A stretch of DNA of 64,000 nt from NCBI GenBank assembly GCA_021292105.1, contig CM037874.1, positions 9,836,002 to 9,900,001 on the forward strand, written 5' to 3'. The notes beneath the pieces are model-generated. The model did not search any database. It was not told where the DNA came from and saw nothing but the letters and a program-made list of their open reading frames with translations. Positions 1 to 63,827 of this stretch are shown piece after piece (position 1 is the first letter of the stretch; each line of letters begins with the position of its first letter). A program made the translations under genes and the position numbers. This DNA is from Anadara kagoshimensis. Its lineage: Eukaryota > Mollusca > Bivalvia > Arcoida > Arcidae.

Positions 1-1080
1 TTATAATTTGATTATCGTTGAGGCATATTCGGCTGTATATAGTTCAGCATTGTTCAAACCAAACAATATCAACCTCATTTCATGATATAGAACAGTACAG
101 TGTGTGACAGTGCACTTTTTATGACTTGTATTTTGGATTATTAGTGGCCTTAGAATATAAATATCACGCCTAGTACACGCATTTTTAGAAGACAAACAAT
201 CGTAGAAGACCTCAAACATAAATTGTCAGTATTAAAAAAAAACCTCGTATTTCTTTAACAAACTCTGACCTCTATGCACTAGATTGATATTTTCCTCATT
301 GATTGGTAAACTTTATTTTAAATTTTGTTCAGTCCTCAAAGCAAAAACTGTTTTGCCGCGGAGGTAATAAAATGTCAATTAAAAATCATATTATATATAC
401 AAATTTCAAATATTTCTCAAAAATGTTTTCAGATATGTCATTTTCTATAACTAAGTAACATATCAAGTGGTATATCTGGTTTATATAGGGCCTATATGAA
501 AATTAATGTTTGAGCAAATATAGTTTTGTACTGGTTGAAAACCAAACACTATGAATGACAAGGAAAAACAAACCGCTATGAATAACAAGAATTCAAGAAC
601 TTATTTGCGAAATTAAACTGGAAACATATTTATGATCTTATCTAACCACGTTTAGTAGAATCTACATTCTAAATAAAATTAAAATTGTCAAGGCCATGAA
701 TGATACGGTGAAAAAAGTTATAGATCTAGCTGAATATAAATTTATGCATTGTCTCCCTTATTCCATTGGTCGACAAATAACTTCAAACTAATCACAGTTG
801 ACCACGTACAGCCTTGGTTTTTATCTTTTATTTTCTGAAAATCTTGTAATCTATTTGCCAGGTATATTCATATTGCAGATAATCTAATATTCCCAGAAAA
901 AAGGTAAGGTAGGTCCTGTTGCTTTCGAAAGTACACTATAGGTACCCTGTCACTGATTAACTGTGTATTGTCAGCTATTTATCTATAAGCAAATGCACAT
1001 GTGTTTACAAATAATTCAGTTAATTGTTAGCTTCGTGTTTTGATTTTCTTTTTTATTTATTGTGAACTGAGACATCAATT
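1..1080. other. Upstream flank, no gene seen
   Basis: AT-rich non-coding DNA before the BCR-like gene. Open frames here are short, lack splice or codon support and match nothing I recognise. No repeat family from the rest of the window is clear in it. Confidence 0.5.
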
Positions 1081-1084
1081 TACT

Positions 1085-1300
1085 CCGCGATAGAAATGTG
1101 ACCGGAAATAGGAGTACACGATCGAACACGCCCAAAATAATGTCAACAAGCTGTGTTAAAATCGCCCACATGTTGGACAACACGATACAAATTTAACACC
1201 CGGAAGTTGGAAAAAATTAAATATTTGTCGACACACTTTAAAACGATGGAGGAGACATGACGCAGAGGCATATATGTAAGTTGCAATTTAGTCTGTAAAT
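1085..1300 (+). promoter_or_regulatory. Probable promoter and 5' UTR of the BCR-like gene
   Basis: This stretch is richer in G+C and CpG than its surroundings and lies directly before the start codon at 1301. It carries ETS-type GGAA cores in CCGGAA context at about 1094-1099 and 1199-1205 (CCCGGAAGTTGG). No TATA box is evident. A short upstream ATG (1246) closes at once (ATGGAGGAGACATGA) and could dampen translation. The transcription start is not fixed by anything I can see; the assignment is inference from position and motifs. Confidence 0.35.
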
Positions 1301-2958
1301 ATGGACATTAGAGAGAAATTCGTCGCTCAGTGGAAATCGAACTTTTCTGATGTTACTCCACCTGACCTAGATTTTTCCATTGACTCATTGAAAACAACAC
1401 TGGATTTACAAAAACAAGAGTGTTTGTTAAAGAAGCAAGAGTTGTTAAAGTTAGAATTTGTGGTTAATTTTTTGCAAAAAATTGTGGATGATAAAAGTAA
1501 TGTTGAAGAAAGTGGTAAAATGAATGTACATCATGGAGCAGAAAGTGAAAGTAGACATAAGGTCCCTGGACAGGACCAGGTGTCGGAAAATAGACCAGAG
1601 ACTGAGCCTACATACTCACTGAGTGATGGTATACGGACTATTGTAACAAATACAAAAACATCCATTACAGTTGGTTTAATGACTGGTAATAATGAAAACA
1701 GCAAGCCAAAAAATGAAAACAAATTTGCTAAGCTCCGTCCAGCTCCAAAACCACCTGTTCAGGTGGGGTCTGTTGTTCACAGTGGCCAGGAAAAATTTGA
1801 ACTAAAATTTGAGAAACAGGAAACAAAAGAAAATGCTGGCAAAACATTTGATACATTTGGTAAACCTATATCTGGACCAAGATGGTCGATTTCTTCAAGA
1901 AGTAAATCACAGTCTGAATCCGTTTCTGATAAACAAGAATCCGAGAAAAACGCCAAACCTTCTGTTCCACCAAGAATTTCTAGTCATTTAACCTTTACTA
2001 GTGAACAAACAAAAAACATCCCAACAGACAAAATGGTAAAATTCAGCGAGAAAGAGCCGGAGATATCCAGTCGCTCGTCCAGTACACCCAGCAGTCCAAG
2101 GCCAAATAAAATGAAAAAAGATGAATTGACTGACAAAACCAGTCGTTCATCCAGTACACCCAACAGTCCAAGGACAATTAAAATGAGAATGAAAGAGTTA
2201 AGTGACAAGATCACTGATGAATCATCCGATGATAACTCTGATATTGGGAAATGTATTGATGAACTGAAGGAAATGAAGAAACAGGAAGAAATGAAAAGTA
2301 CAGCTACAGGACTTGACTCTGTTAACAATCAGGTCATCAGTACAGGAAATGTCGCTCGGAATACTAACTTCACCGTGGATTTTAATACAGATACAACAAA
2401 TAAAATACAGATAGATAAAAACAATGGTGTAGAGGAAGAAGACATAATGAGGAGATCAAATGGAGTACGTATAAGTAGGAATGTGGATGATTTATTAATA
2501 GGTACCAAGTATTCCGAGTTAGACTTCAGTAGTAGTAAGAGGGATGTAAAATATAACAATGATTTGAAATCAGTGTCAGAGGATGGTTCATCAAATATGA
2601 CCTATGTCCAGTTAAGCAACTAAACGAGGTCGTAATAAATCTGCACCAAATTACGAAAATGTTTCTCTGGATTTTATATTAACTAAATGTAATCAGTCTG
2701 AATCCACGTCAGACAGTGATGAAAATTACGAAGATGTGGAAACAAGGCAGATTCCACCAATCTTGGAATCGGATATAGATTCAGTTTGTGATTCAATAAG
2801 ACAGGATAAACCTATGAAACCTCCTGTTGAATCAAACTTAGAAGGTGAAGATGACCTGTATGATAATGCAGTGCCACCTTGTGATGATAATGATGTTACA
2901 CCCACACCTGAGAGTGTGTCTAGTACCTCCTCATGGACATTTGTGCCAAGTGAAAATG
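1301..2958 (+). CDS. BCR: BCR-like exon 1 (oligomerisation and disordered region)
   Basis: Starts at ATG 1301; the opening residues ([11 protein letters not shown]) align with the BCR start, which is why I choose this ATG. The frame runs to a TAA at 2621-2623, but coding character continues in the next frame (open from 2616) to a donor after 2958 (AATG|GTAAAT), ending in phase 1 and fitting exon 2. It contains a proline-rich RPAPKPP (about residues 147-153), a tandem 24-residue duplication (2069-2212), and Y-E-N-V and Y-E-D-V motifs after the frame change. Either a 1-bp indel or an unrecognised short intron lies at 2469-2623. Confidence 0.85.
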
Positions 2959-5900
2959 GTAAATATTTTTATCTTTTTTATGTACCCCAGTATTGTCAAT
3001 GAAATGCCCCTTAAGAGTTGAGCTATCTGGTCACCTACCAATCCAGCTATCTACCATGAATGCCAATTATAGGTGATAAAGTGAGTTTCTTTCAAACTTG
3101 CCATTCAAGTCATTTTAGTTGTCCTGCATTGATTAATTCAGCTTTGCTTAACAATAAAATCAAGGAATTATGAGTGGAGTGGATTGTAATAAATACTAAT
3201 TATGGGGTCTAATGCCTCAGTTAAGATTTGTTTTCACTTATATTGAGGCAGCCAGTTATGGGTGGTGGGGGAAACCAGAGAGTGACCTGGATAAAACCAC
3301 TTTTTGCAAACAAACATGACAAACTTTCTCACACTAGGATCTGCTAAAGTAGAATTCATACGTAGGAGGTGATTGAGAGGCATTGTGAACCATAAGTACA
3401 CACTTTAGACAACTCTGCCACTTGAAAATTTGCACAACTGTTGCACTTGTTTGAGGGTTATTGGGATGTAGTTAGGTAATACAGCAAGTGCAAGATAAAT
3501 TTTGTCATCATCTACATAATCAAAAACAAACATACTTATCCATGTCTAAATCACAATCCAGAAGCAAAGTAAAAACATTGGAACTGACAAGTTAGGTTAG
3601 ACATGTGTACTTCCACCATGGAAGTGAGACCGGGTTTGTGGAAGGGTAAGCACTTCCTGTTTAGCTAGCTACATAGTAATATTTTCTTTTTGTTGAAAAA
3701 CATCACATGATGCATACAGTGATGCATATTGTTCTACAGAGGAGATATCATGGGATTATGTCATCATGAGATCCCCGTTTTATGATTTTTTGCTTAAGTA
3801 CAATAACTATAATAACAGTTTAGTTTCTTAGTAATATAATATAGAGTCTGATAAAATTATAAGAAAATAACTTTGGTTGCTATGACGATATGTGTAAAAC
3901 TATACATTTATGAATGTAATACAGTACAGACCTGTCAAAAGTTTAACACTTAGCTAACTGCAGCTTACTTTGGCTAATAAACAGCTTCTTGGCAATTGCT
4001 GTCTACCTACTGGTAACTTTTTGGTCACTCGGTAGCCAAACTTTGATTCCTTTTCGTTAGCTCAGTGTTAAACTTTTGACAGGTCTGTACTGTTTATTGT
4101 ACACAATGTAGTTGCTACAAGGCAGAATAATTTAATTTGATATATCTACATTATTGAAGACTTGGTTTTTATTAAACAACCCACATGTACGGTAGTTGAG
4201 AACTATAAAGATCTAAAAATCTTGTCAGCATTTAGTTAAATATTTGCACTTCCTTGACTGCAGTCTGCATTTAAATTTACATTGGATGATTCAGAGGTTG
4301 TTTGTCTTTATTCTTATATAACTGCTGTTGCATCATGTACATATATACTTGTACTTACCGGTACAATAATAAATACAGAGTCAAACCTGTCTATATAGGC
4401 CACCTAGAGGAACCAGTAAAAGTAGCCTTTATGGACAGGTGGTCCTTATATACAGGTTCAAATACATATATAAAGAGCAATTGGGATAGAATTTTATTTT
4501 TACTGTCCTTTAAAAGTAGTTGGTACATAATATAGCGGTGACCTTTAAGGCAGGTTTATTTGACTGCAGTTTGAGTGCATGGATGGGATATATTTTTTAT
4601 TAAAGTGCAGCAACATTTAATGCAGCATTGAATGTCACTAATTCATTGCAGTACTCATTGTTTTCTGAACCAGTCTGGCTGTTATGATCTTAAAATCCTG
4701 TAACAATTTGTTTGAAAACTCTAATTTATTATATTGTTAAACACTTATGTTGTTTACTATTTCTGGTAGTTATTGCATCATATGTCAGTGATAAGTGTAG
4801 GTCTATGGTCAGCAGTACACAATTCCTTTGATCTACTGCAACTTCATAGAAAATGGTTCATATGAGCATGATTAGAAGTCATTGGTTAAATTGAGATGAG
4901 AATGAGATAGCTCTTCAAAGGTCACAGTTACAATACTATTTGATAAATTGTTGACAATTAAAACATATTGTTCATCTGCCATGGTGAAGAAATCACCATT
5001 GTGAAATTAAAAATCTCATTATGATAATAGTACTTGTTTGTATACTACTATCACTTTGGTCATGGGAAATCTAATCAATTCTTATAGATGAGATCTCATT
5101 GTTTGTTTTACATTTGTATTTTAGATGTTTGGACTACTGCTCAAAATTGCGCAATATTTCCACCATCCTTACCTATATATATCTGATGACGTTTCATCAG
5201 CGTAAATATAAGGTGACGTCTATTTATAAGTAAAACATTTTTAATTTGACATTTAAATCTCTGAAGTCATAAATTTCTGATATTGTTTACACCTTGTTAC
5301 ATCGGGATCTCTGTGTTAAATCTGCAATAAAAAACCAATCGTAAGGTCAGTGTACATGACAGGTGTAAGTGGTGATTGGTCAATTAACTCGTGAAATAAG
5401 CATGATAAATAATAATACAGTCATAAACGACATATAAAAACGTCATCGTGTAAAAATATATATACATGTATAAGATTTATGAAAAAATATCCTAAGGCAC
5501 TAAAGTTAAGAAAGTTTTGGTGAAGCATGTTAAAGGGGATGAAGCTTAACTATTTTGAGTTAGGGGCCCAGCTCAGTTCAGAAAAAAGTTGTAATAGGAA
5601 TAAATAGCTAAAATGTGTAAACATTAAGGGGCCCATACTGATTTTTAGTAGTCATGGGCTACTAGGCCCCTGGTAATCTTAATCCCTGTGTTAAGTGTGA
5701 ATGAATTGGTATTTTATACACCAAAGATAAATTTTTTTCACTTATATTGAGACATCACCATGCAACTATTTTTATAAATTATATATTGATAAAGCTGCAA
5801 AAAATGATACCATGGTGACATTTTTATGACACATTAAAGAGAATGGTGAATGAGGGGTCATTTTTGTGGTTTCGGTTAAGAGAATTATGAATGGGAATGT

Positions 5901-48350: not shown

Positions 48351-50159
48351 CTTACTTACTTACTTAGGTCTCCTCGTGCCATGCGGCACATAAGGCAGCC
48401 ACACAGTCTCTCCATCCAGTCCTATCTTTCGCTTTCTTCTCTATCTCCTTCCAGGACCACCCAAGTTGTTTCAACTCGCTTTCGGCTGTTCTTCGCCATG
48501 TTGTTTTTGGCCTGCCTCTCTTCCTTTTCCCGTCGGCTGTCCAGAAAAGGCTCTCCCTGGTAATGTCGCTCTGATCTTTCCTAAGCACATGGCCAACCCA
48601 TCTCCACTTCCTTCTCGCTATTTCTACCATGATGTCTTCTTGTCCGGTCAGCTCTTTAAGATCGCTGTTAGACACTATTCTTGGCCATCTGATCTTGTAT
48701 ATGGTCCTAAGGCATTGGTTAAGAAACACTCTCAGTTTTCTTATCAGGTCTTTCCGGAGCTTCCAGCTTTCGGATCCATATAGTAATACAGATTTTACGT
48801 TGCTATTAAAGATCCTCAGCTTTGTCCTTGTTGTCATGCAGGAGGAGGTCCATACTGGTTTCAAGATGGCAAACACATGACGAGCTTTAATTTGTTGATT
48901 CGGGATGTTATGTCCTCGTCTGTACCTCCTGTTGTTGTTACTATGCTGCCGAGGTACATGAATTTCTCTACATCTTCCAGTTGTTCTCCATTTACTTGTA
49001 CAGAGTTGTTGTTCTGTGCATTGATTCTCATTATTTTGGTCTTTTTAAGGTTGATGTTGAGGCCTAAGCTTCTAGATGTTTCAGGGAGTTTGGTTGTTTT
49101 CTCTTGGATATGCTGATAGGTGGATGAGATGAGACATAGGTCATCGGCATAGTCCAGGTCATCCAGTTTGTTATCCATTCTCCATCTGATGCCGTTCTTC
49201 TTATCTCTGGTTGATTCCCTCATGACCCAGTCTATGGCCACTAGAAAAAGCAGGGGAGATAGCATACAGCCTTGTTTTAGTCCTGATGTTACTAGGAACC
49301 ACTCTGTTTGGGAGGTGTCAACCATCACACTACACTGAAATCCTTCGTGCAGTACCCTGATGATGTCAATAATCTTTGTTGGAAGACCATACACTCTTAA
49401 AAGCTTCCAAAGGCTTTCCCGATGTACACTGTCGAAGGCCTTCTCATAGTCTACAAAGTTTAGGTATAGGGAAGATTGCCATTCTATTGACTGCTCTATG
49501 ATGTTCCGTAAAGCAAAAATTTGATCGCAGCATGATCTTCCTGGCCTGAACCCCGCTTGTTCCTTTCTCAGTTGTGCATCGATCTGTTGATTTACTCTTT
49601 CTAAAAGCACTCTGGTAAACACTTTACTTATTGTAGGTAATAGTGTGATTCCTCTCCAGTTGTTGCATTCAGATTTATCTCCCTTTTTTGGCAGTTTAAT
49701 AATAAGTCCGTTTTTCCACTCTGTTGGTACTGTGTTGTTTCTCCAAATGTCTTGAAATAAGTTGTGGATAATTGAGGATGTTGCTTCAATGTCTGCTTTG
49801 AGTAACTCAGCTGGGATGTCATCTATTCCTGCAGCTTTGTTGTCTTTCATCTTTCTGATAGCATTCTGAATTTCATGTAAAGTTATTTCCTGTACACTGA
49901 TGTTGAGTTCTTCTATATTGTTGTTATCAGTATCGATATCTGGTGGTTGAGATGGGTTCCCTCTGTTAAGAACGGCTTTAAAATGTTCTGCCCATCTTTC
50001 CATGATGTCGCTGTTCTTTGAAAGGATGTTGCCCTGCTGGTCTTTCACAACGGCAGAATTGTTGGTAAATTTTCCCGACATTAGTTTGGTGATCTTGTAG
50101 AGTTCATGTGTATTTCCCGTCCTTGCTGCTTCTTCTGCTCTGCTTGCATTATCTACTAT
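48351..50159 (-). mobile_element. 5'-truncated RTE-type non-LTR retrotransposon
   Basis: 1,809 bp between perfect 86-bp direct repeats. Its 3' end (left, minus strand) is a (TAAG)4 tail, and the open frame stops inside that tail (E-E-T-stop), so the 3' UTR is almost nil. The right end is cut within the coding region: the endonuclease part is absent. It codes reverse transcriptase and a C-terminal region typical of the RTE-like LINEs common in molluscs. Identical duplications point to recent insertion. Confidence 0.93.
48364..50157 (-). pseudogene. Reverse transcriptase of the LINE (truncated, frameshifted)
   Basis: The upstream frame carries RT motifs in order: W-K-N-G-L-I-I-K-L-P-K-K-G-D, R-G-I-T-L-L-P-T, E-Q-A-G-F-R-P-G-R-S, F-V-D-Y-E-K-A-F-D-S-V-H, G-L-K-Q-G-C-M-L-S-P-L-L-F, catalytic Y-A-D-D (49140-49151) and Y-L-G-S-I-V. 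Near 48878-48892 the frame shifts by one base; the second frame continues to 48364 with L-L-Y-G-S-E-S-W, K-W-R-W-V-G-H-V-L-R and R-G-R-P-K-T-T-W. The N-terminal endonuclease is missing. The ATG-led frame start at 50180 lies in the target duplication and is not native. Not an active element as read. Confidence 0.92.
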
Positions 50160-50245
50160 AAAGCCTACTATTTTTTTCATTTGATACTTGAATTGGTGCT
50201 TTAAAGACTTTTTGGAAATTTTTTATAACTGCTCAAATCCATGTA
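50160..50245 (+). repeat. Target-site duplication of the LINE, right copy (86 bp)
   Basis: Exact match to 48265-48350. Flanking bases differ (T before, T after versus A and C), which fixes the length at 86. Confidence 0.97.
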
Positions 50246-57073: not shown

Positions 57074-57240
57074 TCATTTGCGTAATATTCCTTTCATTTG
57101 TCTGTTCTGTCCCTCTAGATTGTCATTCAATATGTCCATTTTAGGATTAATTATGTCTATTTTTTCATTTTGCAGTTCAATCTCATCACCAAGTCCTATA
57201 GCTAAATCTTTTAACCTGGATATCCCATCTGATAATTCAC
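57074..57240 (-). CDS. SNAP29: SNAP29 exon 3 (Qc SNARE motif, stop)
   Basis: Acceptor (minus strand TTTACAG) ends at 57241; stop TGA at 57074-57076. Encodes G-E-L-S-D-G-I-S-R-L-K-D-L-A to M-K-G-I-L-R-K. Matches [26 protein letters not shown] of human SNAP29. Confidence 0.95.
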
Positions 57241-60200
57241 CTGTAAAGAAAATTAAAATTGATATATAGAAATATAATTTGTTAATAAGTGCTATAATGC
57301 CAAAATCTGTCTGTACAAATGGTGATGATGAATAGAGGTTTTACTTTATACTATTGATTACCATAAATCACAGGCATGTCAAAAGTGCACATCTAATCAG
57401 TATAGTCGAACAAAACACTGATATGTGTCTATAGGTTATTGATTTCTATGGTAAAACATTGCTGAATGGGTTTTGTTTTCTGTGTTTTGGACCCAGTTTG
57501 CAATATCTGTGTAAAAACCAAACTCAGTATGGTAATAATTTGCCATGCATGGAATATATTATACATTTATTGCCTTTTTCCCCCAAGGACGAAGCCAGAC
57601 ATTTTTTTCTTCAATCAGAACTTATAGGTGTAATATATTGGATCTGTGTTTGATATAGGCAAGCTAAAATGTTGGTATATTACTGGTAGGTCTGCTCACT
57701 ATAACATTACCTAAATTTTCATTCAGTCTTTCTTCCTTATCACTTCTTGTAATTGATGTTATATATTGTTGATTGCCATAATTTTGTCTTGAACCAGCCA
57801 TAAATCTTTTATCTAAATCATCATCTTCTTCGTAAAATCCTTTATAATCCTCACTCCGAAGCCTTAGAGCCGGGTGCTGACCTGCTGGAGTATCTCTCTT
57901 AGTTTCTATGGTGCTTTTTAATTTACTTTCTCGTGGTTCTGGAGCTTTTTGTTCTTCTTCTTTTTTACCTTGCCACCAGTTTTTGATACCACCAAACACA
58001 CTTTTGATATTATTTAAATGTTTCTGTGTTGTTTTCATGGACTGATTCATTTGTGTAGTCTTTCTATCAATGTTATCTAACTGTTCCCCCTGTCTTAATA
58101 GTTCCTAAAATAAAATCAACACAGAAATTGTCAGCAAGGAGTGGAGTGGAGTAATGGAGTTTTATACACAGTCAAGATTCTTTTGTTAATATCAAGATGG
58201 TCAGTTCTGGGATGGTGGAGGAAACCAGAGAAAACCACCAACCTTTGGACCACACTGCCACCAAGGTTCCTTGTCAGCAAGGGATACTCAAGTTGTTATC
58301 AAACATAGATACTGGTCAATAAATTCATACAGAATCATGAAAATGGTTTACTCTCATAGCAAAAGTAGCAAGTGTTGTTATCCTTATTCAAATGAATTGA
58401 TTTCAATCATTTAACTTTACCTAAATGATTGTCATTTTTTTAACAATTCTTGTGTCATTTATAGAAAAAAATAAAGTAAAGGTATGACTAAGTTTAGGAA
58501 AATTTTGTATGCTCTTGAACACATCTGTCTTTTTAAAATTGTGTATACTAGTAAACAATTTTTTATCTACTTGATTCATATGATAATGTTTTCAATTAGA
58601 CTAAACTAAAGACTTCATTAAAACCACTTAAAGAATAGAATACGGAAAGCATGTTAGTATGATTTGCTATAGCAGTTTTTGTTTCCACCATATCTAAGGA
58701 TGCATTTATGGTCTGTCAGAGATATTATGGCAGAATGTTTATAAACATCAAATAGTCTATATAATGTAGATAGGGAAATATAAAAGGTGGGGTTGACAAA
58801 TGATTGTACAAAGGCATGAATATTTGCATGATAATTTCATAACACAATATTAATACCCATACATTTTCGGTATAATAAACTTTCCTGTGTTTATAAACAC
58901 TCTGTCACAATATTGCTGATCATGGATTATACATTAATTGCCCAAATGTCCTATACTGAAAATAATGTCAAAGTCACGGGGGACAATCACGTGACTTATG
59001 TTGATCACGCTTTCACCTGAAAACGCTCGCTTCGAAGGTAAGTTGACCATAGTTTTATATGATAGCGCGTGAATTTGAAAATAATATGTAGCCCACGGAA
59101 GAAGTATATGTGCACTAAGTTTCCTTGCCAAATGACAACATTCAAATCCCCGTAGTTTCTGCAAACACTTCGACAATGTGTGGAGCACGTTAGATATTCG
59201 TGTTGATCACACTTACACATTTATGCTATCGCTAAATAAATTTAACCAAACGATGAAATTTGCGCCTTTTACACCCGAATTTTCTGCATCCACTAGATAT
59301 TTATTACAACAGACAATTATTTCGCGTGTCTACATGTCGGTAGATATTGGAATTTGTTAGTATTCGTCAAATTATGTAAAATGATCACGCTTTCACTAAG
59401 TTTGTGAGTTGATCACGCTTACACAATGTTAAGATATAAATTTTCGAATATCGGTTTTAGAATGTTCAGTCATTTGGACAGTGTCTGTAGTTTTAGGTTT
59501 TATGATCATTGCCCAAAGATAAAATTACTAGATTTTTAGTATAAAATATTCTGTTTTTATTGGTCAGAATGACTAGAAAAAATAAGCTGTGGCTTAACAA
59601 GCCCAAAAGAAAATGCATGTATAAGTGAGCAGTGTTCGATCACCCTTTAAATGTTGAAGACGTTTGCTAAATCATCTTTCAAGTAACCATTGACCAAAAA
59701 AAAAAAAAAATCAAAATAGCAGCTAAGACGAACTCGCCATTCATTTTGATTATGCTACTATTGGATACTGTTTGTAATGTCAATGATATGTATGTTAGCA
59801 CATATAAATGTCATTTTAAGGTGTCTTTTCCGTGTGTTTATTTTTTATATGAATACATAAATATGATTTCGTACTAAATACTTTCTGACAGATGTCACAT
59901 TTGTAATGTTTGGAAGTATGTTTAGCAATGTGAACTTTTAAAGTTTGCTGTGATTTGAAGTCCTTGTTACATTTTGACATGGTATTCTCTCCTCAGTCTT
60001 ATGGGATTTTAAATGTCTGTGGTAGTTTGTTCTAAACCTGAAATGTTTACCACACATCATACATCTGAACTTTTTTTGACCGGTGTGAATTCCGGAATGC
60101 TCATTCAGGTCGACAATTTTTTCAATTTTAGATGGCACATGTCTCACTCAAATTTTAAAAGCCCTTCTTCACGCAATTTGTGACGTTGGAAGTCACGTTC

Positions 60201-63200
60201 ATCATAATAGATACCACTGCAGACATTGCAAACTATTTCATTCTATGCTCATGCTTTTTTCTTGGTGTGTAATAAAGATGCTCTTGCTGAAAAAGGCAGA
60301 TTGCATTCTCCGCATTTATATGACCCTTCAGATTGGTGGCGTAACTCATGCTGCCTTAAAGAAGGAGCCCCTTTCAACACTTTTCCACAATATCTACAAA
60401 TACATGCTTCAGATATGGCTAGAAGAAAAAAATCATAAGTGTGTGTGTCACGGTGTGCCAGATGACTGTCGGATTTCAGACTGGTGGAAAAATAGTCGGT
60501 TCCTCAAAGTACCATGTCAAAGTGTCCTTGCATCTAGCAGTAACAAAACACAGAAATTCAATATACATTCATATCAGTCAGGCGCGTAGCTACCTATACG
60601 CCAGTACGCCATGGCGTCCACATAATTTCTTATTTTTAAAAAATACTTTTTCATAAATTTTCCGCTCGAAGCATTTCTTTACAGAGAACATGTCATGGTA
60701 ATGATATTAATTCTCTTACAATTACAAAATACAGTAACAATTCGTCCCACTATAGTATCATTTACTGTTGTAATTCAGTAAAAGTTCAAATCGATCGATC
60801 ATTTTCAGGTTTTTGTTTTGTGTAAAAAAAAAACCACGGTAGACCATAATAAAAATATCTATATCTAGCGAAGAACAGGCATTCTGGTTTCTGGTTAGTT
60901 TGTCAAGCGCCACATGGATTCCAGCAAACAAAAATGTAATGAAGATACCATCAACAAAATGTTAAAAAGATTTTTATAGCTAACATAATTTTCCAACAAA
61001 CAATCGATATACTAACGGGCACAAAATGTGCACCATTGCTTGTTTATTTGGTGCTGTGTTCGTATGAAGCAGTATCTATGTAGAGCCTTGTTAAATGTCG
61101 CCACATCATTCAACGCCACATACAGATATATAGATGAAACTCTATCTCGTAATAAACCTTTTTGGAGATTATGTGAATGTCCTAGTGAGCTTGAAATAAA
61201 AGATACGGCTGATTATGCAATGTCTACATCATATTTAGATTCATACAATGACGTTGTACATTTGGAACTGTATGGCAAACGTGATGACTTCAATTTTTCA
61301 AATTTCCTTTTCTATGTAGTAATATACCTGCTCCTGCTTATGATGTATTTGTTTCTCAAATAATATGATATGGTAGAGCGTGTTCCCACTGCGATAACAG
61401 TTTAGCTGCTCACAAATAAATTGTTGACGCGGGGATATTGCAAGTCTAAGCGTATCAAGCCTTAAACAAATTTTGACCTTCATCCAATATTGACCAGTGT
61501 AATGTCTCTGTATCCAAAATTATCCTGGATATATTTGACTTTCCATAGTTCCATGTTCTTTTTACACTTGGCGGGTGTATCCGGGACATTCCGTCTCGCT
61601 TCCCTTGCAGAAGTTCACGCGTTTAACTTAATTTGCCAATTTCAAATACATGTGTATTACTTTGCTTTGGGACTGTGATTTGGACATCACTACCAAATGC
61701 AACCGTCCGAAGTTTCCAGAAAAAAAATCTTCGGTAAACATGTTAAAATAACTGTCAAAACTTGCTTTTAGATTCAGCCAATTTTATTAAAAAATGCCAC
61801 CAGATTGCACCATTTGACATCAATATTTCACATTTTCACGGGGGATCCACCTGCCACCCCACACATGTCTTTTGTGCGAAAGTTTGTTATACTTTGAATC
61901 CACATCATTTTTACCTAGCTACGCGGCTGTCAGTGACTGACCGGCAATTATTGTTGTGCGCGAGTGCTAGTAAGCACTTATGCTGCAACGCTGCACATTG
62001 CACATCACTTTCAATCGGTGAAATTATATACTTATATAAAGCCAATCGGTAAGGGCCGTCGACACGGAGACGCTCGGAAATCGAACTCACGGTGGTGAGA
62101 GATCTTGAGTTTTAAGACAAGGGAAGACTTCAATTTGTGTCCTCCATACAAATTTTATTTTTACTGAAAAACCTAAAAATGACGGGATCAAGACATTTAG
62201 ATATTGCTATGGGGGAAAAACTTAACATAAAAATTAATAGGTATGTTTACAAAAGGAAGTCCTACCTAGTACTTAGTCAACTGTTTGGTAAAGCGGCACT
62301 ACTTCATGCGAGTGAAATATTCTCAACCCATCATTGTTTACCTTTGTAGAATGTTTAAAACAGGACCAGTCTTCGTAACGTATAGAACATCAAGTTTGAC
62401 CTGGCCGTTTGACCTTTAATTTGAATACTGTAAAACATGAAATTTTTGCGAGCAAGAAATAAATACGAAAAGTGTTAGATTGGACTAATTGACTGTGTGA
62501 TTTAGGTAAGACGGCATGTTTCATTACTGTAAACACCCGGTGCCCAGTATAACTATCATCCATCCGTATATAGCCCCTAAATTAAACAATAGATATTCAA
62601 ATTAAATGTCAAAGGATCAGGTCCAACTTGACGCACTATACATCGATATGGACAAACAACAACTATAGACAAAGTTAAAGTCACATATATTGTTCGTATA
62701 TTTACAATACAGACCTGTCGAAAATTCAACACTGAGCTAACAAAAAGGAGCCCACGTTCGGCTGTCGAGATTTAGATAGTGGCAACTGCCGATGTAAAGC
62801 TAACGGGGAGCCAAAATTAAGCAATAATTTGTTAGCTTAGTGTTTATTTTTCAACAGGTCTGTACTGTATAGTACACATCCAATCTGTGTACATAGCATA
62901 CAAATATATATAACTATAGATAAAGGCACTGTCGAATTAACTGAACATTCTAGATTGTGTAGTCTAACTTCGTGTAAGCGTGATCAACTCACAAACTTAG
63001 TGAAAGCGTGATCATTTTACATAATTTGACGAATACTGACAAATTCCAATATCTACCGACATGTAGACACGCGAAATAATTGTCTGTTGTAATAAATATC
63101 TAGTGGATGCAGAAAATTCGGGTGTAAAAGGCGCAAATTTTATCGTTTGGTTAAATTTATTTAGCGATAGCATAAATGTGTAAGTGTGATCAACACGAAT

Positions 63201-63827
63201 ATCTATTGTGCTCCACACATTGTCGAAGTGTTTGCAGAAACTACGGGGATTTGAATGTTGTCATTTGGCAAGAAAACTTGGTGCACATATACTTCTTCCG
63301 TGGGCTACATATTATTTTCAAATTCACGCGCTATCATATAAAACGATGGTCAACTTACCTTCAAAGCGAGCGTTTTCAGGTGAAAGCGTGATCAACATAA
63401 GTCACGTGATTGTCCCCCGTGAAAGTGAGCCCTCAAAATATTTATGGTTTTAAGAACACATTGAATTGAATTTTTTGTTTTTATTTAGAAAACTATGACA
63501 AAAAGGGGTTTCATTTACTGTTTTTTAATATTTTTATCATGTTAGATCTATGAGGCACATTTCAACATTACACATGTATATTATATATACCTCTCCTGTT
63601 GCCACGCCCATTCTCTCGGACTCATAGAGACTAGCCAGAGCTCTCCTGGAACTCTCCAACTGTCTGTCCTCTGAGGCACTGATCATCTCTTGTTTTTGAC
63701 TCATCCTGTCACTGGGTCCACCATATCTTTGGTTACTGTGCGATTTACTACTATAGGGGGATGAGAAACCATCATCTTCATCATCATCGTCTAAGAAAGG
63801 GTTGGAACTTTCATGATACTTTGCCAT
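57074..63827 (-). CDS. SNAP29: SNAP29 Qbc-SNARE, 3 exons
   Basis: About 265 residues (human 258). SNAP29 supplies two SNARE helices to complexes that drive autophagosome-lysosome and other endomembrane fusion (known). Seen: N-P-F followed by an acidic run near the start, as in vertebrate SNAP29 where NPF binds EH-domain proteins; a first SNARE motif (A-L-A-S-L-Y-E-S-E-R-M-G-V-A-T-G-E then Q-L-D-N-I-D); S-I/V-F-G-G-like block after it (I-K-S-V-F-G-G-I); a charged linker without cysteines, so no palmitoylation cluster as in SNAP25; and a second SNARE motif (R-L-K-D-L-A-I-G-L-G-D-E-I-E-L-Q-N-E-K-I-D). All three exons join in phase (0, 1). Start ATG 63825-63827 is the first in frame after an upstream stop. 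Convergent with the BCR-like gene. Confidence 0.95.
57711..58104 (-). CDS. SNAP29: SNAP29 exon 2 (Qb end and linker)
   Basis: Acceptor (TTTTAG, minus) before 58104, donor TTAG|GTAATG after 57711; phase 0 in, 1 out. T-Q-K-H-L-N-N-I-K-S-V-F-G-G-I matches SQKHINSIKSVFGGL of human SNAP29. A Lys/Glu/Pro linker follows. The intron between exons 2 and 3 is 470 bp and holds an M5 MITE scrap (57291-57352). Confidence 0.95.
58135..58275 (-). mobile_element. SINE family A, reversed
   Basis: GGAGTGGAGTAATGGAGTTT (inverted tail), GGATGGTGGAGGAAACCAGA and the inverted head CCACTGCCACCAAGGTTCC-like end. Same orientation as SNAP29 transcription. Confidence 0.7.
58974..59485 (+). repeat. Left inverted arm of the 4.45-kb element
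   Basis: Pairs with 62925-63422. Open frames here and in the right arm are near copies of one another and reflect the inversion, not genes. Confidence 0.9.
59816..60420 (-). pseudogene. Decayed C2H2 zinc-finger gene inside the element
   Basis: Six finger remnants on the minus strand, in order: C-R-Y-C...H-E-L-R-H (about 60400-60335), C-G-E-C...H (60320-60260), C-N-V-C...Q-R-H (60235-60180), an H-T-G-Q-K-K-F linker then C-M-M-C...H-L-K-S-H (60075-60010), C-Q-x-C...H-I-A-K-H (about 59995-59930) and C-D-I-C...H-I-K-N-K-H (59905-59835). Stops and single-base shifts separate them; one is a lost base in CAAAATGT near 59980. Either a captured host gene or a remnant of the element's own protein; I cannot tell. 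Confidence 0.75.
61085..61310 (+). pseudogene. Fragment of a YIDD-type reverse transcriptase-like protein
   Basis: Encodes F-N-A-T-Y-R-Y-I-D-E-T-L-S then P-S-E-L-E-I-K-D-T-A-D, S-Y-L-D-S and L-Y-G-K-R-D-D-F-N-F. This order resembles a reverse transcriptase-like protein found in many invertebrate genomes (YRYIDD, PxELEIKDT, SYLDL, YDKRDDFNF), recalled from general knowledge. Segments between motifs are shortened and the second Asp of the motif is Glu, so it is a dead scrap. Confidence 0.55.
61550..61700 (-). repeat. Dispersed repeat R1, reversed copy in the element
   Basis: GCTTCCCTTGCAGAAGTTCA, AATTTGCCAATTTCAAATAC and TGCTTTGGGACTGTGATTTG correspond to the inverse of R1. Confidence 0.45.
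62707..62868. mobile_element. MITE family M1, copy 2
   Basis: ATACAGACCTGTCGAAAATT to ACAGGTCTGTACTGTAT; inverted TGAGCTAAC / GTTAGCTTA blocks as in 3921-4093. Inserted just inside the right arm of the 4.45-kb element. Confidence 0.75.
62925..63422 (-). repeat. Right inverted arm of the 4.45-kb element
   Basis: Reverse complement of 58974-59485; ends 168 bp from SNAP29 exon 1. Subterminal GTGAAAGCGTGATCA motifs mirror the left arm. Confidence 0.9.
63591..63827 (-). CDS. SNAP29: SNAP29 exon 1
   Basis: 79 codons from ATG 63827 to donor GAG|GTATAT at 63590. Holds S-N-P-F-L-D-D-D-D-E-D-D-G and the start of the Qb SNARE motif. A longer frame to 63863 begins at GTG and is closed by a TAA just upstream, so the ATG at 63827 is preferred. 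Confidence 0.95.

Follow-up and report, generated by a model that had tools for sequence, protein, structure and literature searches.

The SNAP29 Locus and Its Inserted Element

The window analysed here is a stretch of 64,000 nucleotides from the bivalve Anadara kagoshimensis, of which the right part is occupied by SNAP29. Two exons of this gene (about 57077-57340 and about 57667-58104, minus strand) encode peptides whose best PDB matches are SNAP29 chains. The exon located at about 63591-63827, which has no Pfam match, is presumably the N-terminal exon of SNAP29, named from its position and by recognition, its splice site being placed by eye. As the matched exons lie to the left of the element and the recognised N-terminal exon to its right, the element is carried by intron 1 (about 58105-63590), which is the first coding intron.

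The 4.45-kb element with inverted arms that the first-pass annotation had placed in this intron is indeed present. It spans 4447 bp, from 58975 to 63421 (C18:9894976 to 9899422), its ends being set by reading the flanks. The arm-finding tool had reported arms of 476 nt (58974-59449 and 62947-63422) that are 96% complementary, in agreement with their claimed near-identity, and separated by a spacer of 3497 nt. The true ends are one base inside the reported ones because the outermost reported base pair belongs to the target duplication. This duplication reads AAAGT on both sides (58970..58974 and 63422..63426); the 3-bp AAG duplication initially proposed is thus rejected in favour of one of 5 bp. 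An assembly artefact is unlikely, as other loci show this structure too, each with its own duplications.

Arms, Ends and Repeated Motifs

Each arm is a terminal inverted repeat (TIR) of 475 bp, delimited by inverted-repeat detection and flank reading. The left one (58975..59449, plus strand) begins with CACGGGGGACAATC and the right one (62947..63421) is on the minus strand. The ends of the element are fixed, CACGGGGG at the start and CCCCCGTG at the finish, and the mean pairwise identity among 47 distinct arms is 97%.

As first noticed, there are four copies of the motif TGATCACGCTTWCAC in each arm, three exact and one with a single mismatch; counted from either end, they stand at positions 28, 230, 408 and 436. 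In the left arm, the motif scan places the plus-strand copies 1 to 4 at 59002..59016 (TGATCACGCTTTCAC), 59204..59218 (the copy with one mismatch), 59382..59396 and 59410..59424. In the right arm, the minus-strand copies 4 to 1 are found at 62972..62986, 63000..63014, 63178..63192 (one mismatch) and 63380..63394. When the whole window was scanned with up to three mismatches, 8 of the 10 matches fell in the arms, and 100 shuffles gave a mean of 2.13 matches and at most 7.

These motifs were proposed as binding sites of a transposase. A search for variant arms, in which the base following the first motif is changed, allowed a motif spacing of 18 to 48 and gave 8 sites (one of them in the zinc-finger copy L031, already known, and two being both arms of one C6 pair); both motifs and their 28-bp spacing are kept in all 8. 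Variant-arm loci include C4:22628842, C6:46219289, C8:21616014, C9:20289349 and C17:25054464. However, the motifs are not outstanding in the 47 distinct arms: the conservation of the four motif windows (0.976-0.997) always exceeds the arm mean (0.964), but they rank in the top 8%, 21%, 44% and 77% of the 15-bp windows. The 15-bp motif is regarded as a candidate transposase-binding site.

The Core and Its Passengers

Among the frames listed and read in the element DNA, and those selected for a Pfam scan, none was recognised as a transposase; this agrees with the initial description of the core. A short backbone stretch common to both types of core found in the family (59554..59614, plus strand, from copy comparison) contains an open frame beginning with MTRK. 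This frame of 45 residues, which has no match in Pfam or PHROGs and whose polymorphic sites are distributed 8/7/9 by codon position, may be what is left of a gene that belonged to the element itself. It has 41 matches in the genome, of which 39 have E < 0.3, and one of these 39 (C11:31739053) has no listed terminus nearby.

The decayed multi-zinc-finger gene announced for the core is a C2H2 remnant carried as a passenger (about 59816..60503, minus strand), found with Pfam in the window and in copy L031. One of its frames in the window matches PF00096 with E 4.8e-11 and another with E 8.4e-4, under the curated cut-off. The polymorphic sites of the zinc-finger frame (28/18/25 by codon position in 6 sequences) indicate no coding constraint. 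A recent capture from the host is not supported by the protein search, in which the best 150 of 1291 candidates were scored. Among the matches listed from these 150, those exceeding 45% identity all fall in loci hit by the zinc-finger DNA probe as well, including two on C1 (23.44 and 24.23 Mb), left unassigned, where stops are present and no arms were seen; the best full-length matches away from such loci reach 36%. The two loci with 36% full-length matches, C15:59513274 and C4:53512556, each have a 219-aa frame with one TAG, and could be distant relatives of the zinc-finger protein of the element.

Other parts of the core are later insertions. One of 1351 bp (60579..61929), absent from copy L031, has the ends CAGGCGCGTAGCTA and TAGCTACGCGGCTG and a TCAGT duplication. 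The other is a small repeat with inverted arms of 48 nt (about 62380..62641, from inverted-repeat detection), a part of which (about 62475-62641) is common genome-wide, a query containing it giving 2815 first-look candidates. The right subterminal backbone (62689..62946) is again common to both core types according to copy comparison.

A Dispersed Family with Two Main Types of Core

Searching the genome (1.115 Gb) with one arm, as had been advised, revealed a dispersed family, in no read copy of which was a transposase recognised. First-look candidates for the arm probe numbered 546; the best 40 were scored and show 95-100% identity. The first 24 bp of the element occur exactly 92 times, and 156 sites have at most 3 mismatches with its first 34 bp. 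Of these 156 sites, 100 were listed. The number of termini placed is 111, 76 of them forming 38 facing pairs (within 12 kb) and 35 being unpaired. The pairs span 680 to 9643 bp (median 3971 bp), and at least one of the 38 is not a single element: the longest, C8:28786414-28796056, joins termini of different copies, between which a LINE-type copy breaks off within its left arm and is followed by unrelated DNA.

Backbone markers assign 28 of the 38 pairs to a LINE-carrying type and 7 to the zinc-finger core, 3 being neither. Furthermore, 21 copies (window included), picked as good matches to the left arm of the window, were read. Three, namely that of the window, L031 and L042, have the zinc-finger core, 17 have a LINE as main core, and the core of the last one, L040, is made of other DNA and a short LINE piece. 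In L040, positions 1085-2167 of the copy consist of 7.5 tandem repeats of a 145-bp unit; similar units are found in L012, L020, L027, L029, L039 and L053.

The LINE-type copies encode RVT_1 and Exo_endo_phos domains (reverse transcriptase and endonuclease), the endonuclease of L032 being located in a further insertion, and the LINE is assumed to belong to the RTE clade by recognition. It is placed between repeated backbone (about 581-596) and its tail is of the TAAG type; such an arrangement would be expected if the LINE had inserted itself into the transposon. Its polymorphic sites (90/88/98 in 13 copies) have no codon-position bias, and the longest sense open frames of the 17 LINE copies range from 121 to 403 aa, both 403-aa frames coming from further nested insertions. 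The LINE-type copy L049 harbours an insertion of about 2.7 kb (1023-3742) with a Crypton-like tyrosine-recombinase frame (PF00589, PF12012). Elsewhere in the window, a LINE reverse transcriptase fragment (48367-50222, minus strand; PF00078, E 3e-33) resembles by eye that of the LINE-type copies.

All 21 copies examined are flanked by perfect target duplications, of 5 bp in 16 and 6 bp in 5, with a composition of 82% A+T. Among 420 mispaired control flanks, only 1 reached 5 bp, 1 reached 4 bp and 12 reached 3 bp. The comparison with empty sites, proposed at first for the duplication, gave one clear case: the site of the L033 insertion is found empty in paralogous units in L014 (88% over 203) and L036 (83% over 316), both with a single GAGTTT. 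Two further cases, L036 (77%) and L050 (84%), are weak.

Constraint on the Arms

Distinct indels number 2 in 475 bp for the left arm and 4 in 451 bp for the right arm, versus 127 in 2931 bp for the interior. The left arm looks over-conserved because the copies selected were those matching the left arm of the window best; the right arm is less affected by this bias. With sites treated as independent, the right arm differs from the interior in indels (p=1e-4) and in polymorphic sites, 67/450 (15%) versus 602/2913 (21%), p=0.004. In the same way, pairwise substitutions amount to 2.0% and 3.1% in the arms versus 4.4-4.8% inside. The passengers, on which no coding constraint is seen, drift, and the arms resist change. 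This pattern of sequence variation suggests that much of the arm may matter for movement.

Search for an Autonomous Relative

Several loci could have been autonomous copies. The long pair at C8:28786414 was rejected, as it holds the LINE-type copy and unrelated DNA mentioned above. A long pair at C34:236682, of which 3.5 kb were read and 8 frames scanned, gave no Pfam match, nor did the one frame scanned in each of L040 and L051. A candidate on C33 was also discarded: its right core was found close by, so that it looks like an ordinary zinc-finger copy.

The RAG1 model PF12940, which could miss distant Transib transposases, has a single match in the genome, which is not between ends: of 114 placed arm sites, the nearest is 27.9 Mb away. 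This only match found (C8:56669592-56669981, E 3.3e-5) lies in a stop-free open frame of 832 aa. None of 98 matches to PF02992 (CACTA-type) is between a listed pair of the 114 placed sites, the nearest one, on C2, starting 2.8 kb away from a LINE-type copy.

Relationships with Known Transposons

The initial view that no superfamily fits clearly still stands, although the CAC..GTG ends and the 5-6 bp duplications narrow the choice. CACTA/EnSpm and Chapaev elements share the CAC..GTG ends and, as here, repeated motifs near the ends. However, CACTA/EnSpm elements also make 2-bp duplications, their range being 2-3 bp whereas it is 5-6 bp here, and no such transposase was recognised inside. Polintons have long TIRs like those of this family but differ in ends and size. 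Foldback and other long-TIR non-autonomous elements (e.g., Tetris) also have long inverted repeats, whereas the arms here are TIRs of fixed length with a constant motif spacing. In the published descriptions consulted in part, EnSpm elements have CAC..GTG ends and 3-bp duplications (PMC12730594), and 6-bp duplications are those of Polinton/Maverick and IS3EU (PMC10045372), the latter having TA..TA ends (PMC10045372) unlike the CAC..GTG found here. In a literature search including part of PMC10294476, no published element was recognised as this arm family; an Rfam search of the element gave no match.

Mechanism and Alternative Explanations

The element is very probably a non-autonomous DNA transposon with long TIRs, which would be moved in trans. 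A transposase of DDE chemistry, made at another locus, would recognise sites repeated along the arms (for which the 15-bp motif is the candidate), bring the two ends together and integrate the element with a stagger of 5 or 6 bp. Internally, the family would have spread as two lineages, that of the zinc-finger fragment, to which the window belongs, and that of the LINE, which would have landed in the transposon and been carried along thereafter. We infer this mechanism from the anatomy of the elements.

Which enzyme moves the family is a narrower question. An enzyme of the CACTA/Chapaev/Transib-RAG group, most likely Transib/RAG-like and acting in trans, is a tentative answer, judged to have somewhat less than an even chance. 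Transposases of CAC..GTG elements fit the ends and the duplication length best, and the genome encodes one RAG1-family match with a long open frame. Furthermore, CAC..GTG ends and 5-bp duplications, the length of 16 of the 21 duplications here, are given for RAG-like and Transib elements in the part of PMC7204232 consulted. However, the A+T-rich duplications, the 475-bp TIR and the 6-bp duplications of 5/21 copies set the family apart, two lengths being untypical for Transib-type enzymes, and no RAG-like gene was recognised in the copies read. In addition, the RAG1-like locus is remote from the placed arm sites, PF02992 matches are lacking inside the listed pairs, and the ends agree with the protostome RAG-like consensus CACTWMCAAACKTYKBB in the initial CAC only (PMC7204232, consulted in part). 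An element of hAT type with 5- or 6-bp duplications, or of another superfamily with CA..TG ends, is unlikely: the element has the end CACGG, whose third base deviates from the hAT end consensus YARNG, and by eye none of the hAT candidates scored (150 of 724) is near a listed terminus, the closest one measured being at 49.5 kb. In favour of this reading, hAT groups (hAT5 and hAT6) with such duplications are recorded in the consulted part of PMC12730594. It is quite unlikely that the family represents an undescribed superfamily or major CAC..GTG lineage, whose enzyme would read the array of 15-bp sites with a loose 5-or-6-bp stagger, the entire 475-bp arm being under cis selection.

Two other readings concern what the family carries and what it does. 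The predominance of the LINE-carrying backbone in the facing pairs and in the copies read could suggest a new composite element moving by its own reverse transcriptase. This is extremely unlikely, as zinc-finger copies move without the LINE, and TIR ends and duplications are alike in the examined copies with and without it; the LINE reverse transcriptase, unconstrained and nested, is rejected as mobility gene. The long duplex foreseen for the arms is borne out as a prediction, with -810 kcal/mol versus -131 to -148 for five shuffled partners. Since this duplex is strong and the element lies in the first coding intron, the SNAP29 pre-mRNA might contain double-stranded RNA formed by the arms, with a part in host regulation through editing or exon circularisation. 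Such a regulatory role is possible on the predicted folding but very unlikely: in the usual circularisation arrangement, inverted arms bracket an exon, whereas here no exon is bracketed because both arms are in the same intron.

Significance of the Family

On the preferred explanation, a DNA transposon moved in trans, the window element is a single member of a modest family of DNA transposons of the cut-and-paste type, with broken passengers and no recognised transposase of its own. The element is real and its details are new, but it is of a common sort. For SNAP29 itself it probably matters little. It is probably spliced out together with intron 1. Should an unbiased sample confirm the constraint along the whole arm, the family would offer a natural test of the length of terminal DNA that a transposase needs. 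It would also show, through its LINE and its zinc-finger gene, how passengers are carried along in a mobile element and decay there.
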